This document shows positions 46,208-64,000 of a stretch of DNA of 64,000 bases, piece after piece. Below the pieces are notes generated by a model that saw only the letters and a program-made list of their open reading frames with translations, searched no databases and was not told where the DNA came from. The stretch is from Paramacrobiotus metropolitanus. Lineage: Eukaryota; Tardigrada; Eutardigrada; Parachela; Macrobiotidae. The position numbers and the translations under genes were made by a program. The DNA is taken from NCBI RefSeq assembly GCF_019649055.1, contig NW_026570236.1:1054001-1118000 (forward strand), given 5' to 3'. Each line of letters opens with the position of its first letter. The first letter of the stretch is position 1.

Positions 46208-48982
46208 ATGGATTCCAAAGAAAACGCTTTCCGTGCTGGGGTGATTATTGTGGAACGTGAGCCCTGGGTATGGTCATTTCAGTGGGGGAACGAAGACAAA
46301 TTCTGCGCTAAATGTTTTGGAGTCTCTGATAAGCTGCGCGTTTGTTCTGGATGCAAGGTACATCGGTACTGCGGGGAAGATTGTCAGGTGCGATACAAAC
46401 AGTGTTTGTGATGTCCCTGCTGTGCACCCGTTCTTGTGCTCCTGAAAGTGGTATACTGTTGGAGAGTTAGAGTTCTGCCTCTCTGCATTTAGTTCTTTGG
46501 AGTGAATGCTGAATATAATTTGGATTTCCAGCGTTAACCCATTAAAACAATATCTGGCATATCTCCGCTTTTACAACTACTACTCGAAGCTTAATGATGG
46601 TTTAAGTAAAGTTAGGGCTACAATTTAAGCATAAATAGCTTAAACTAATTAATTTGGTTTAATGGCAAATTTACAGACTTTGGTATTATCCAACATGAGT
46701 AACTGTTTTGCAGCGTTCCGACTGGAAAAAAGAGCACAAACTGGAATGTGCTATGCTGAAACGCATCAGTGTCTACAAGCACCAAATGCAGTATGAATCA
46801 CAGACAGCTGCTTTGTGCACAACGGAAATGATGATACTGCTCAAAGTCCTGAACAGAGTCAAACAGAACCCGGACATCGTGCTAAAAAACGTGGGAAAAA
46901 TCCTGGTTAATGCAGCAACTGCCCAGAAAATTCCGATACGCGCGACTCCGGCACAGCTTCAGCTACTGGAGGTTAGTTCGCGCATGGAGATCATCATGAG
47001 ATGTGTGACTTCGAACGCTCCCAGTGTTACCCATCTCGCATTCCTTCTTCCTTCCATCGGCGAAGGATTGGTTGCAGAATAACACGCATATAATATAACA
47101 CACATACTTGTTGTATATTTTACAATACAACAACCGTAAAAACTATAAGTAAGGTATGTATCTCTACTGATAATTGATTAGCTATCTCACATGGTTTTCT
47201 TCTCAGCAGACTACCGGTACTGACGAGGAAGAAGATGCAGCCCGGGAGTTTACGTCGTTGCTCATCTCCGATAATGATGACCATCTGCCACATACAAGTC
47301 AATCGAAAATGGCTGGCGAGTAAGTTCGGTATAAGAAGTCAATTACTTGAAACACTTGGATATTAATATCTGTAGCCTGTATTTAGGTTCCGAAAACTAA
47401 GGCAGAAACCATATTTCCGCGGCTTGATGGAGGCGGCGTTTCCCGACAAACCAGATATTGCCTATCAGCCCTTGTTCAATTCGGATATTGCCGACATCCA
47501 TGATCGAATTCACTGTCGTATGCTGACGATAACCGACTATGTGTCTCTCCCCTTACCGGTGAATTTTGGGGCAGGACTGTTTCCGGGTGTCGAAAGAAAC
47601 CACATCATATCGAAATGTTCGGATAACAACGCTGTTATTGTGTTTCGAGGGAGGCGCTTGCACATGGTGGCAATGGAAGATATTCCCAGTTACACTGGAA
47701 TATCAGATGCAAGTTACCGGTTATGGTTCAGTTTAACGAACATTTTTTCTACTTGCTATACTCAGTGTTGCATGGTATCTATTTGTAGGCGCGATGCTGC
47801 GACTTATCCCTCTTTCCGTTAAACTGGCCTTTAAAACAGCGCCGGGAACTGTTCCAAAAATATTACGAAAGAGTGTGCAACTGCCGCAAATGCACGCCGG
47901 AATTTGTAAGCAGCGTTAACAATTGTGCGAGTGGTGTCTTATGTATTTGCTCGATAGTACTCGTATTTGCCGGTCATTGCAGGAAGCGGAGATAAATCCC
48001 CTACGTTGCGTAACAATAAACTGCCCAGAACGCATCCCTAGCGATGAACGTGCATTACTGCCGTGTGCACATTGTAGTGCCGTGAATGGGTCCAAGTTGC
48101 AAAAGTTGGGAAAGGTCATGAAGAAATATGACAAACTGCTGGATACACTAGCTCATAATGAGCATAATGATACCGATAGCTGTGAAATGTTGGAGGAGCG
48201 GATTCGTTTCTTGGGCGAATTGGATAGTGATAGCATTTTGCACACCGACGCTCACCTTCGCTTTGCCCTGGGATGGGATGTGGCTCGGTATTATGCGGGG
48301 ACTATGCGTTGGCCCTTGGCAGCACAGTTGTATCGCGAGATAGTTCCCTGTCTTCGGTAGGAACGTGTTCGCGTATTGCAGAATTAGAAAAGCTTTCAGA
48401 AGACATAAGTGCTTCTTCATCTTGTACCAATGTATCCATACTTGAATCAATAGCCTATATCTGTATACAGTATACAGAGTACTGTACGATTTTGTAATAC
48501 CAGTACAAGTACCTTATCACATACAACTACAATACAGAGTATCAAATTAATAACTTATATCTCCAGCAGTATTTGGCTACATAATTATCTGTATAAAGTC
48601 CACTTTTTGCAGGAAAATTTACCCTAAATATCACCCGCATTTGGCCCGATATCTCCGTCGAGCGGGACTTTTCGCGTTGATGTGGTTTGACCATCCACGA
48701 TCGGATGATAAGTATTTTGCAGTGCCGCTGATAAAAAAGGCCATGTCCGAGGGAGTTGACTGGCTAGCAGAATCCTACAGGATTTATGTGAAACTGTGTG
48801 GAGAAAACTCTCACGTGGCCAGTGAACTGGTGAATACATTGGAAGCTGCCGCTGACATGTATCGTCAGCTGCTCAGGAGGGAGGAGCAGGACGAGCACTC
48901 GGAAGTGTTGCGCGTGTTGCAGAATATGAGCTATCACAATATGATGGTAATGTCTGACAGTACTAATACGAAGAATGATTAA
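46208..48982 (+). CDS. SMYD-family MYND/SET protein, array copy F
   Basis: Exons 46208-46387, 46714-46971, 47210-47319, 47387-47708, 47789-47905, 47983-48356 and 48613-48982 give 576 residues in one open frame. Exon 2 is 57-105 bases longer than in A to E, adding a helical segment that F shares with G and H. The MYND finger (CAKC ... CSGC ... YCGEDC ... EHKLEC), post-SET CNCRKC and second cysteine cluster (LRCVTINC, PCAHC) are complete. The SET cofactor motif reads SKCSDNNA. Intron 4 starts with GC (GCAAGT), a rare but valid donor class shared with H. Exon 7 is longer than in A to E and ends in an acidic, asparagine-rich tail. It is the best-preserved member of the F/G/H group. Confidence 0.92.
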
Positions 48983-56462: not shown

Positions 56463-59293
56463 ATGGATTCGAAAGTGAAAGCGTTTCGTGCCGGAGATAT
56501 TATTGTGGAATGTGAACCCTGGGTGTGGGCATTTCACTGGGGCACGGAAGACAAGTTTTGTGCAAATTGTTTTCAAATCTCCGATAATTTGCGCGCTTGC
56601 GCAAAGTGCCAGGTACATCGGTATTGTGGAGCGGATTGCCAGGTGCGATACATTCAGCGTTCGTTGGTGGTACAGAGTATATTCCTCGTTAAGAGCATGT
56701 CCAAGGGTTCAAGTGCAACGGCAGAAACGTATGTTGCATACAAAAAACTGCATTGGATGCTTATTTTTTCATTCTGTTTTTTAGCAAAATTGGTTAATCA
56801 TTTAGTGCACTGGTTGGGCAATTGTTAAAGAATTTAGGTTTATATAAGGCACACATATAATAAAAAAATACGGTCAACCATTAGGGCCGTACAAGCCGGT
56901 TTGAATAATTAACACTAATTCAAAAAAATAACAAATATAAATGATTTGTTGCAGCGCAGGGACTGGAAGAAGGAACACAGGCTAGAATGCGCTATGCTGA
57001 AACGTATCAGCGTCTACAAACAGCAAATGCAAACTGAATCGCTGCTCGAAGCTTTGTGCATCGCGGAAATGATGATATTACTCAAAGTCCTCAACAAACA
57101 TGAATTTTCCGCGGACAGTGTCATGAAGAACTTGAGGAACATTCTTGCTAATGCGCCAGCTTCCCACAGAATTCCCATACAGGCGACTTCTTCCGAGCTC
57201 CAGTCACCGGAGGTTAGTACATTTATTAAATAGCTTTAGAACGCGTGAAGTAGTTTCTCACATCCGCTGAGTAGCAGTGTTATACTGCAAGAAATTGAAC
57301 AACTACACATTTCGCGTCGTTCCATTCATGTTTTTTAGAACGCACAATAGCATAGGCAAGTGTACAGGGACAATAACAGGGTATTGGTACATTACCTGAT
57401 CTTATTATTAACAGACCGCCGGTTCGAACGAGAAAGAAGCTGTAGCGCGAGAGATTATCTCCTTACTTGTATCTGACAACGATGGTCATCTTCCGCATTC
57501 GAGCCTGTCCCAAATGGCGGCTGAGTAAGATCGCGCGCTGTAATTACTCATGCCCTTAGGCACTTGATTTTAACTGCTGTATTCAGATTTCAGAAGCTTA
57601 GGCAGAAGCCATACTTCCGTGGGTTAATGGAGGCGGCGTTTCCCGGTAGACCAGACATTATCGATAAACCTTTATTCGATTTGGATATTGCCGACATCCA
57701 CAATCGAGTTCACTGTCGTATGCTGACGATGACCGACAGTTTATCTCTGTCTTTCCCAGTCCATTTTGGAGCAGGCCTGTTTCCCGGCGTCGAAAGAAAC
57801 CGCATCATTTCGAAATGTTCGGATAATAATGCTGTTATTAAGATTCTTGGGAAGCGTTTGCGTATGGTTGCAATGGAGGATATTCCCAAGTATTCTGGAT
57901 TGCAAGATGTAAGTCATCGGCTATGGTTCGCTTTCAGGAAGATATCTGTATACGGTAATTCAGTAGCTTGCTCTCGCCAATACTACGCGGTATATGCAGG
58001 TCAGATGCTGCAACATGGCTCACTTTCCATTGAGCTGGCCTTTAAAGCAGCGCCGAGAAGTGTTCCAGCAGGCTTACGAAACAATATGCAACTGTCGGAA
58101 ATGCACGCCAGAATTTGTACGTCAGGGTCGAGATCGTTGGCTTTCTCCTACGACGCGCGACGACCGACTTATCACGCGTCGATTTATCGACTTATCACGC
58201 GTCGATTTATTCTTTTACCCGTCGTTGCAGGAAGCGGAGATTAATCCTCTCCGCTGTGTGACAAAAAATTGCTCAGAACGCATACCCAGCGACAAACGCG
58301 CCACACTGCGTTGTCAACGTTGTGGAGCCTGCAATGGGTCCAGACTGCAAAAGTTGCAGAAGATCACGAAGAAGTACGAAAAATTGTTGGATACGCTAGC
58401 TCTCAATCAGCAACCCGATCCCGATAGCAACGAAATGATGTCTGAACGAATTAATTTTTTGCAAGACTTGGATAAAGCTAGCATTTTACATACCGACGCT
58501 CATCTTCGCTTTGTCCTGGGATGGGATGTGGCTAGGTATTATGCGGGGACTAAGCGTTGGCCGCGGCCAACGCTTAGTCCCCGCATAATACCTAGCCGGA
58601 AGCAGCACAGTTGTATCGCGAGATAGTCCCCTGCCTTCGGTACGAACGTTTTGCAATCGGTAAAAACTTTCAGCAAAGAGAGATGAGTTCTGCACCTTCC
58701 TGTAAGTCAAATGAATTATATTGAAATAATTGAATAAGGATTACGTAGGATCAGACGGAGGTTTTTGAGAATTCATACTGTTTAAAAATGATCACTATTA
58801 AGTAATGGGAGACAGTTTTGTACATGGTGATAGTTTTTACAGGAAAATTTACCCTGAATATCACCCGCATTTGGCACTATATCTCCGTCAAGCTGGACTT
58901 TTCGCGGCGTTGTGGTTTGGACACCCGCTATCAGATGCCAAGTATTTTGCGGTGCCGCTGATTAAAAAGGCTATGTCAGAGGGAATTAACTGGCTAGCGG
59001 AATCCTACAGGATTTATGTGAAACTGTGTGGAGAAAACTCTCACTTGGTCAGTGAACTAGAAGTAACATTCGAAGCCGCAGCTGAAATGTATCGTCAGCT
59101 GCTCAGGAAGGAGGAGCAGGACGAGCACTCAAAATTGTTGCGCGTGTTGCAGGATATGAGCTATCACAATATGATGGTAATGTCGGGCAGTGAAAATACA
59201 GTAACAGATTCTGAGCCACGCACATACTCGTACTTGCGGACTTTGGTATTACTTTTTGTTTTGGCACTCATTTGGTTTTACGTTTTAGAATAA
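56463..59293 (+). pseudogene. SMYD-family copy G, disrupted by a 35-base snap-back insertion
   Basis: Exons 56463-56642, 56955-57212, 57415-57524, 57587-57908, 58000-58116, 58231-58639 and 58843-59293. Exons 1 to 5 have exactly the lengths of copy F. Exon 6 is 409 bases rather than 374 because a 35-base inverted copy of the preceding sequence has been inserted, making the palindrome at 58530-58597. The frame then shifts and stops at 58624-58626. Without the insertion the product would be 603 residues. The SET motif reads SKCSDNNA and the MYND finger is complete. Exon 7 encodes, beyond the end point of F, a hydrophobic C-terminus (LRTLVLLFVLALIWFYVLE) that would anchor the protein in a membrane by its tail. 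If the palindrome is an assembly artefact, the gene is intact. Confidence 0.75.
58530..58597. repeat. perfect palindrome in exon 6 of copy G, 34-base arms
   Basis: The arms 58530-58563 and 58564-58597 are exact reverse complements with no spacer; the centre is GGCCGCGGCC. Comparison with F and H shows the right arm to be the added part: removing 35 bases restores the family sequence CGTTGGCCGGAAGCAGCACA and the normal exon length. Confidence 0.95.
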
Positions 59294-60615: not shown

Positions 60616-63600
60616 ATGGATACCACGGAAAAAGCTTTCCGTGCCGGAGATATTGTTGCGGAATGCGAGCCTTGGGTCTGGACATTTCAATGGGGAAAGG
60701 AAGACATATTTTGTGCTGGTTGTTTCCAATATTCTGATAATCTGCGGGCCTGCTCCAGATGTCATGTACATCGGTACTGTGGAGTGGATTGTCAGGTACG
60801 TCGATACAATTATACAGTTACAAAATAAAAATAAATAGTCAAATAATAAAGACAGTGTTCGTGGTGGTACGTTTCTCGCGAAAAGCGTCCTCAAGTACAA
60901 TGTCGGGAAATGCTGCATAACAAAATAAAATAGCCAGAATATGGTGAATCTACGGTTTAGCGTGCTTATTTCGAGGCTGCATTACACCAACAAAAGGTTT
61001 TTAATCAGTCCCACTGCTTGGCTCTTTGAAAGATGAAATTTATAGACATAATTTATAAATTAAGTGAGCCGACCTGAATACGGTCAATCAAGAGCAGATA
61101 GGACCATATTTGAATATTATAATCGAAGAAGTGACCAACGGAAATAACGTGTTGCAGCGCTGGGACTGGAAGAAGGAACATCGATGGGAATGCGATATGT
61201 TAAAACGCATCAGTATGTACAAGCAGCAAATACAACCTCAATCGCTGACCGAGGCTTTGTGCACCACGGAAATGATGATATTACTCAAAATCTCCAACAA
61301 GCTCCTGAAAAATTCAGTGGAACAGCTACGAGGATGGGGTAAATGAGCTCGATGTATGGCAGGCCGTTCTATAACGCGAAATAATTGAAACAGCCGTTGA
61401 GATCGATAGCTGAAACTTTCCTCCATAGACTTGCATGCTAAACAAAATCCCTTCTGTGACTCTGACTCTGTCTCTGTCTAGCACATTTCGACCTAAAACG
61501 ACTTAACCTTAGTTTCAAAAGAATGAGAAAAACTTCACAAGATTTCACTACCAAACAAGTTAATATTCATGATGTCAGTGACAAGTTATCGCCATTTCTG
61601 TTTTCAACATAGCAGAGTATTTGTGCGTCGAACCCGATCGGGACCTAAGAGTCTATGACCTATGCTATGTCTTCGATAACATACTGTAAATGGCGATAAC
61701 TTGTCACTGCCAGCATGAATATTACTTGTTTGGTATCGAGCTGTGTTACCCCTTGCTCGGGTATATCGAGCTCAAAGTTTACCATCCTCGTAGTTGATGC
61801 GGCAGCTTTCCACGGAATCCCGCTTCTGGACACTTTTGTCAAGCTACAGTTGCTGGAGGTCAGTTAAGTAAGCCTTTGAAGCGCGTGTACAATACTGTCA
61901 AGGGCACGGGATGTAGGACGTGCCCTGACGTGGTGGGCCGACACAACTGAAGCTGAACCTTTATTGGCTACTCTCTGCTCTTGCATATAATGCGCTAGTA
62001 TTATACAGGAAGGCAACAAACAAACAAACTCGTCGAAGGCTAGATTGCACAATGAACGATGAGCAATAGCAGCGCTAAATGCTAATGATTGAATTTTGAA
62101 AGCACTCGACACTTGGAACAACGTGAGGATGACACAGAAAACAGAGAATCGCCATATACGGAAGCATCTAAACAAGCTATGGCACGAGGAGCACTCGTGA
62201 CAGTATATACAACATATGGATATATATTTTCTTTCTATTATATATGGAAAGAAGTTCTCTGTTGCAAGAAACTTAATGAAACATTCCCATCCTTTTCTTG
62301 TCAACGTTTCCAGACCAAGTTACTAGCTGCACAGTGGCACAGCTACAACTATAGACAGATATACGTAATACTAGCTGGTACTTACATACCTTCCATGACC
62401 TTCTCCTCAACAGATCACCGGGACGGACGACGTAGAAGTTGCCACACGAGAGATTATGTCTTTATTCGAGCCCGATAATGATGACCATCTTCCTCATTCG
62501 AGCCTGTCCAAAGTGGCGGCTGAGTAAGCTCGGACTAACAAATACCGTTCTTCAGAACTTACCTTCGGCTTTGAGTATCTATATGAGGCTATATCTGTGT
62601 GTTTAGGTTCCGGAAAACCAAAGAGACCCCACAATTTCGCGGCTTGATGAAGGCGACGTTTCCCGAAACGCCAGCCATTGCTCACAGTTCCAGTTTGTTC
62701 AGTGTGGATATCGCCGACATCCACGATCGAATTGAATGTCGTATTCTGACGATCATGGACTACGTGTCTCGATCACGCCCCGTTTGCTTAGGAGCCGGGC
62801 TATTTGCGGGGATCGAAAGAAACCGTATCATATCGAATTGCTTGGATAACAATGCTGCAATAGCATTTCGTGGGAAGCGCTTGCAAATGTTGGCAATGGA
62901 AGATATCCTCAAGTACACTGGATTACAAGATGCAAGTCATCGGATACGCTTCTTTGGCTTCAACATACAGTATATAGATATAATATAATATACGAGATTA
63001 ACAATATACATATCGATAACACCAAATCGCTAATACGGCGCATTATACAGCAGTTTACTTATTTTAGGCACGGTGCTGCAACTTAGCTCATTTTCCATTT
63101 AAACTGGCCTTTAAAACAACGCCGAGAACTGTTTCAGCAGTCTTGTGATAGGATATGCAACTGCCGCAAGTGCTCTGCAGAATTTGTAAGCCAGTGTCAT
63201 GACCGTTGGAATTTTTGTTTGATCAAGCCCTCGTCTGCAAGTACCGTAATATTTTCACTACTACTGTTTTGCAAATGTTAGCACGTGTCGTTTTAGGAAG
63301 CGGAAATTAATCCTCTCTGTTGTATGACAAAAGATTGCCCAGAACGTATACCGAGCGACGAACGTGCCTTACTACCATGCCCACACTGCGGTGTTATTAA
63401 CGAGCCCAACCTGCAGAAATTGCTAAAGGTCACGAAGAGATACGAAAACTTTTTGGATACGCAAGCTTACAACCTGCATCGCGACCCAAATAACCGTGAA
63501 GCGATGACTGAAAGGATTCATTTCTTACAAGAATTGGATACGAACAGCATTCTGCACACGGATGCACATCTTCGCTTTGTCTTGGGATGGGGCGTGGCTC

Positions 63601-64000
63601 GGTATTACGCTGGTGCTACGCGTTTCCGGGAGGCAGCACAGTTATATCGCGAGATAGTGCCATGCCTTCGGTATAAAACTTTTGATAAATTACTGTAGGT
63701 TAAGAGCTTTGATTTCACCAAGTACGTCAGGTACCAGAGAACTGAAAACAGCATTGCAGTAGTAGCACATTTAGAAAATGTTGCTGAGGTTTATGGTATA
63801 TGATTAATAGCGCGTCACTTCTTGCAGGAAAATTTATCCCCAGTATCATCCGCATCTGGCACGATATCTCCGTCTGGCCGGACGTTTCGTCATGACGTGG
63901 TGCGATCATCCCCAGTCGATGGTCCACGGTTTTACTGTGCCGCTGTTCAAACATGCCATGACAGATGGAATAAACTGGTTAAATGAATCCTGCAAAATTT
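60616..64000 (+). CDS. SMYD-family MYND/SET protein, array copy H (runs off the window)
   Basis: Exons 60616-60795, 61158-61338 plus 61794-61858 (exon 2 split by an extra intron), 62414-62523, 62607-62931, 63068-63185, 63297-63670 and 63828 to the window edge. The MYND finger is complete (CAGC ... CSRC ... YCGVDC ... EHRWEC). The SET motif reads SNCLDNNA, the most altered in the array. Intron 4 has a GC donor, like F. Exon 5 is 118 bases instead of 117; an extra T in CCATTTAAACTGG near 63110 shifts the frame, so the copy may be broken. The extra intron in exon 2 consists of a TA-flanked inverted-repeat element; without splicing a stop appears at 61344-61346. The C-terminus is beyond the window. 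Confidence 0.75.
61329..61790. mobile_element. TA-flanked element inserted in exon 2 of copy H, acting as an intron
   Basis: The left end CGAGGATGGGGTAAATGAGC matches, as a reverse complement with small gaps, the right end GAGCTCAAAGTTTACCATCC plus TCG; inverted repeats of about 28 bases extend to GAGCTCGAT. TA lies on each side (61327-61328, 61791-61792). Deleting the element and one TA gives CAG CTA GTT GAT GCG GCA, colinear with F and G. A GT donor at 61339 and an AG at 61792-61793 (second base of TA plus G) allow removal as a 455-base intron, leaving ten element bases, lacking one native G, for a net gain of nine bases. It contains a nested element at 61551-61733. No transposase seen. Confidence 0.75.
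61551..61733. mobile_element. nested TA-flanked miniature transposon, 183 bp
   Basis: Inverted repeats of about 46 bases (left CCAAACAAGTTAATATTCAT, right ending ATTACTTGTTTGG) are flanked by TA on both sides (61549-61550 and 61734-61735). It sits inside the larger element in exon 2 of copy H. The ends share blocks such as CAAGTTATCGCCATTT. Non-autonomous. Confidence 0.75.

Follow-up and report, generated by a model that had tools for sequence, protein, structure and literature searches.

A TA-flanked, pogo-type MITE with candidate splice sites in exon 2 of one duplicated gene copy of Paramacrobiotus metropolitanus

Results

Gene copies and the insertion in copy H

The window analysed here is a stretch of 64,000 nucleotides of the Paramacrobiotus metropolitanus genome (C16:1054001-1118000) containing the related gene copies A to H; genome searches covered 169.8 Mb in 533 contigs. 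The genes had been labelled SMYD in a first-pass annotation. Pfam analysis of the host genes detected a MYND finger in copy F (E 6.2e-10) and no SET match at E<=0.01, which supports this label only in part. The following features of the window are relevant to our analysis:

46714-46971, + strand: exon 2 of copy F, uninterrupted control
56955-57212, + strand: exon 2 of copy G, uninterrupted control
60616-64000, + strand: host gene copy H; the model extends to 64155, past the window
61158-61338, + strand: H exon 2, left part; with splicing it would contain ten exonised bases of the element
61327-61328, no strand: left TA of the target duplication (target CTAG)
61329-61790, + strand: pogo-type MITE in exon 2 of copy H, 462 bp, with family matches
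61329-61356, + strand: left terminal inverted repeat, family form, holding the candidate donor
61339-61793, + strand: candidate intron GTAAAT ... TAG, 455 bases, splicing predicted
61762-61790, - strand: right terminal inverted repeat, altered by two small changes in length
61791-61792, no strand: right TA of the target duplication; its A and the host G at 61793 form the candidate acceptor AG
61794-61858, + strand: right part of H exon 2
61804-61805, + strand: alternative acceptor AG, in frame with the donor at 61338
63068-63185, + strand: later exon of H with one extra base (118 bases vs 117 in F and G)

Exon 2 of copy H is split by the 462-bp element, which is flanked by TA on both sides. 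The insert described earlier was borne out by its coordinates, and its inverted repeats by arm complementarity (outer 15-nt arms 93%, inner 13-nt arms 92%). Aligned end to end, the two ends show no substitutions and differ by lengths of 2 and 3 nt, the left end having the family form and the right end being the odd one. We had also considered that an end lost two G's which were later restored as a frame rescue; this was rejected, because the family form is found at the left and it is the right end that has changed. Removal of the element together with one TA in silico yields an open frame (...SVEQLVDAAAFHGIPLL...) with 87 and 24 open codons on either side, which can be aligned with F and G as had been claimed. 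On sequence grounds, a transposon insertion in this exon is near certain.

The window copy has diverged from its relatives, the longer matches being 65-74% identical and one 99-bp stretch 84%, and its inner arms are 95-100% complementary over 49 bp. Dating the insertion from arm divergence is weak, since subfamily divergence and age are inseparable here.

Paralogues as controls

Exon 2 of both F and G is continuous across the insertion site of H. In copies A-E the protein similarity to F breaks off within F residues 31-63; the match in C is the longest and runs through a stop. A GT is present in 5/5 of these copies two codons after an NK/NR/NG motif (gtaata, gtaagg, gtacgc, gtaaga, gtaaga), and no similarity was detected in A-E past this GT. 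F, G and H have no GT at the corresponding position, and the insertion in H lies nine codons after the motif, i.e. seven codons downstream of the GT of A-E. Judging from these motifs, A-E probably start an intron seven codons upstream of the site in H. Because of the donor-like GT upstream and the end of similarity there, A-E are not controls for the insertion, and of the seven intronless controls counted in the first-pass annotation only F and G are left. The intron of H, if it is an intron, was gained, because its sequence is the TA-flanked repeat.

Comparing exon 2 of A-H (27906-61858), F and G read 37-39 codons and H about 31 codons further past the position of the A-E GT. This extension looks as if the loss of a donor had turned intron sequence into coding sequence. 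The pN/pS values of the stretch carrying the insertion were 0.63 (F-G), 0.51 (F-H) and 0.73 (G-H), those of the upstream part 0.17, 0.22 and 0.31, respectively. The element landed in a loosely constrained stretch.

Two further peculiarities of these genes were observed. An exon of G in 58520-58620 comprises 409 bases vs 374 in F; the excess is a short inverted duplication (GGACTAAGCGTTGGCC/GGCCAACGCTTAGTCC) breaking the frame, which is either a real lesion or an assembly artefact. Furthermore, a GC donor (GAT/GCAAGT, the slash here and below marking the border) is apparently used by F (47709) and H (62932), and G has GT.

The repeat family and a transposase-bearing relative

When the genome was searched with the element, 120 matches were obtained and grouped into 26 loci besides the window. 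The search with the end pattern, allowing up to 3 mismatches, gave 49 matches vs 0 for a reversed control pattern. We fetched 33 loci, including the reference copy L002, and 32 of them match this copy; L031 is probably a chance hit because it does not. Family members are mostly near-palindromes of about 720 bp with TA on both sides. Both ends were placed at 18/33 loci (19 copies) and the other 15 were omitted, so that the two-ended set including the window copy comprises 20 copies with 40 ends. TA was present on both sides in 20/20 of these copies, the ends having been located using sequences that include the TA. In 14 of the 17 copies whose arms were compared, these are 92-98% alike; the values are lower for L004 (80%), L022 (83%) and the window copy (88%).

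One copy that shares these ends is 2,846 bp long, not counting its TAs:

L028:1197-4046 (C133:26596-29445): longer MITE relative; its HTH_psq and DDE_1 pieces lie in different reading frames

Two of its four pieces were recognised by Pfam (HTH_psq, E 1.1e-7; DDE_1, E 2.7e-9) and the other two gave no match. One transposase piece has 37 matches in the genome, itself included. L028 is a candidate source of transposase, by which the window copy may have been moved.

Pogo-type MITEs of the Tc1/mariner superfamily have a TA target and shared inverted ends. The element family fits this type in all tests run, showing the TA target duplication, terminal inverted repeats shared by multiple copies and a related transposase. 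The assignment as pogo-type was made because L028 combines the same ends with HTH_psq and DDE_1 transposase pieces. The origin from a TA-target transposon, already suggested in the first-pass annotation, was supported by a repeat family with TA on both sides and a transposase-bearing relative.

The loci L006 and L007 (C69, about 4 kb apart) have left flanks identical over 100 bases. The two flanks of L006 are inverted copies of each other without a mismatch over 100 bases, its element being the centre of either a larger palindrome or an assembly fold-back.

Other family copies in relation to genes

Joined empty sites were made for the 20 two-ended copies. Open frames across the join were seen at several other sites as well, e.g. 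37 and 51 codons for L007 and 15 and 104 codons for L005. The flanks contain 227 frames of >=75 codons, the longest 121 of which were put to Pfam (25 of 31 families listed). Thirty flank frames were scanned one at a time, 29 of these being among the 121; this approach could overlook genes that lack a Pfam domain. Family copies were located downstream of genes encoding an RNase T2 (L002), a serpin (L001), a receptor (L016) and an Hsp70 piece (L026), upstream of a receptor (L033), beside a kelch piece (L017) and between two receptor exons (L004), the second of which is a weak match.

In this shallow survey of joined frames and Pfam-scanned flank frames, no copy except that in H was shown to interrupt a coding exon, and as to many copies being introns in different genes, H was the only one seen. 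The genome search for the element ends recommended with the earlier interpretation did reveal copies. Since none of those examined at this depth was shown to break into a coding exon, we do not regard the elements as a mass introner family.

A 274-base copy (L025:3330-3603, C375:27329-27602) is situated at the inferred first bases of the intron of an LRR gene, so that part of the donor (GTACGA) would come from the element end. We rejected this candidate as a second exon interruption: on C29, a paralogue with 94% identity has an inferred intron that starts at this point (TTTG/GTTAGA). The LRR exon expected next was not seen on the fetched piece.

Candidate splice sites and reading frame

The usual family end, CGAGGA(G/T)GGG/GTAAAT, is purine-rich and contains GGTAAA; GT occupies end positions 11-12 in 30/40 ends of the two-ended copies. 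On the same strand, the opposite end reads ATTTACCCC(C/A)TCCTCG followed by TA and is pyrimidine-rich. In copy H this results in a candidate donor GGG/GTAAAT with GT at 61339 and a candidate acceptor AG at 61792-61793. The earlier proposal of a donor from the element and an acceptor from the right TA plus the next G agrees with the sequence, the donor being the standard family end. The join 61338/61794 would read EQL-RGW-VDAA, containing the three added codons RGW that had been predicted. It would add 9 bases in frame, because ten element bases are kept and one host G is lost. Unspliced, the frame of copy H hits the stop TGA at 61344. Wherever a host G follows the TA, the usual family ends would give these nine in-frame bases in both orientations. 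The base after TA is a G in at least one orientation in 7/20 two-ended copies, including H with its target CTAG. As judged by sequence only, the candidate splice sites come from the element and the target duplication, as expected of introners.

The strength of these sites was assessed with a model based on 27 native donors and 28 native acceptors, a small set from one gene cluster. The candidate donor scores 5.38, which is above 4/27 native donors and reached by 5.8% of the 4,073 GTs in the window, and ranks 4th of the 32 GTs in exon and element. The candidate acceptor scores 0.96, which is below all 28 native acceptors (lowest 1.4) and reached by 31% of the 3,552 window AGs, and ranks 9th of the 27 AGs in exon and element. 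Pyrimidines make up 10/14 of the bases before it, a level reached by 7.9% of the window AGs. Twelve bases on, a rival acceptor at 61805 scores 2.76 and forms a pair with the donor that is in frame and stop-free. The consensus acceptor scores are 2.77 and 1.19. An earlier model (18 introns), superseded by the present one, gave -3.07 for the acceptor (48% of window AGs) and 5.99 for the donor (4%). The donor is on par with native sites; donor and acceptor as a pair are usable, not outstanding.

State of gene copy H

The extra base in the exon at 63068-63185, which the first-pass annotation did not list, causes a +1 frameshift with stops on reading further. The frame of H after this base is well conserved (LNWPLKQRRELFQ, as in F), which suggests that the change is recent, or an assembly error, or bypassed via an acceptor at 63086. 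This acceptor would restore the frame and scores 1.38 vs 10.27 for the natural one. Pairwise dN/dS values were 0.19 for F-G (569 codons), 0.22 for F-H (540) and 0.24 for G-H (545), with the H exon read from 63087, its first 19 bases being dropped, and part of the G exon omitted. These values show long constraint on H and do not isolate the period since the insertion. The 1,320 downstream coding bases of H contain no stop codon and one frameshift. Under assumed rates, the probability of at most one lesion in this stretch is 0.03-0.09 at 2.7% change since the insertion and 0.43-0.57 at 1% change. Copy H may be decaying.

Discussion

The sequence shows that exon 2 of copy H received, at a CTAG, a TA-targeting MITE of pogo type. 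Its left end would be read as a 5' splice site, and its right end, being the reverse complement, would provide a pyrimidine-rich stretch before the TA. With a G after the TA, TAG could act as acceptor; ten bases would be kept and one G lost, giving nine additional bases in frame. In this way the element could leave the transcript as a new intron (61339-61793), with RGW added, and the frame-keeping acceptor ending at 61805 may serve as well or instead. This reading is supported by the empty site in F and G, the open joined frame in H, the TA on both sides of the family copies and the donor in the family end. Further points for it are the donor score, the pyrimidines before the acceptor, and an H that is otherwise open, with dN/dS of 0.22-0.24 against F and G. 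We estimate the probability of a MITE in H exon 2 with a plausible new intron removed in splicing at roughly 50%. The odds of a new intron in H are thus about even, the acceptor scoring below all native ones, the later +1 frameshift and the loosely constrained site being points against it.

The main rival is a decaying gene. Copy H may well be a duplicate in decay, disrupted by the MITE, with reading ending at 61344 and the splice-like ends being incidental; we consider this a serious possibility at somewhat less than even odds. In its favour are the weak acceptor at the element and the frameshift in 63068-63185, whose bypass acceptor is far below the natural one in score. However, the extra base could be an assembly error, and so few lesions in the downstream coding bases would be improbable at 2.7% change, an argument which vanishes at 1% change. 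It is rather unlikely that the element is spliced mainly by a 61338/61806 join, with VDAA lost, RGW gained and one codon fewer on balance: the acceptor at 61805 has the higher score and an open, in-frame partner in the donor, but the stretch upstream of it is pyrimidine-poor as read and it sits behind the first AG.

A true introner family that made many introns in the genome is very improbable. Splice-like ends are present in most copies and a third or so of the two-ended ones have the suitable G, but in our shallow survey the other copies near genes lie beside them or, in L004, between exons, and the LRR case lies at an inferred intron start. Of the introner-type intron gain claimed at first, the element- and target-derived splice sites were retained, splicing stands as a prediction, and other exon-interrupting copies were not seen among those examined. 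A more far-reaching idea, which we regard as doubtful, is that the MITE ends form a ready-made two-way splicing module: an exon insertion at TA+G would, in either orientation, be born as an in-frame three-codon intron. H would be a working example, and the rarity of copies in exons would result from target choice and purging, not from inability to splice.

How new spliceosomal introns originate is a question of long standing. If the element in H is spliced, it represents a single intron gain with known source element and known empty site, and shows how a common cut-and-paste MITE could turn into an intron in a single step. For any exon insertion of this MITE family, the ends make a testable prediction (ten bases kept, one lost). 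A literature search, conducted mostly without subscription papers, gave nothing on pogo-derived introns by title or start of the abstract; a candidate intron gain from a transposon insertion is of a kind already known.

Introners derived from DNA transposons have been described as having terminal inverted repeats, target duplications and varied ways of recruiting splice sites (Gozashti et al. 2022, PMC9860276), and an Aureococcus family adds 12 bases. The case of H resembles them in its nonautonomous element with inverted repeats and target duplication, in a splice signal belonging partly to the element and partly to the target, and in the added codons. It differs from these introners by its 2-bp TA target, the addition of 9 bases and one candidate intron, known here from sequence, instead of many. 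We did not file H as an introner, because the defining repetition was tested and only H was seen in our shallow survey; the comparison holds as 'works like' only. With pogo-type MITEs the element shares the TA target, the inverted ends and a relative with HTH_psq and DDE_1 pieces, and it differs from them in the long near-palindromic body and in the position of the window copy in an exon, from which it may be spliced. Tc1, a TA-targeting transposon of nematodes, can be spliced from mRNAs when present in an exon, often imprecisely. Copy H likewise has a TA-targeting transposon in an exon and a candidate removal from the mRNA, but here, unlike in nematode Tc1 splicing, both candidate sites lie at the ends of the element and together preserve the reading frame.
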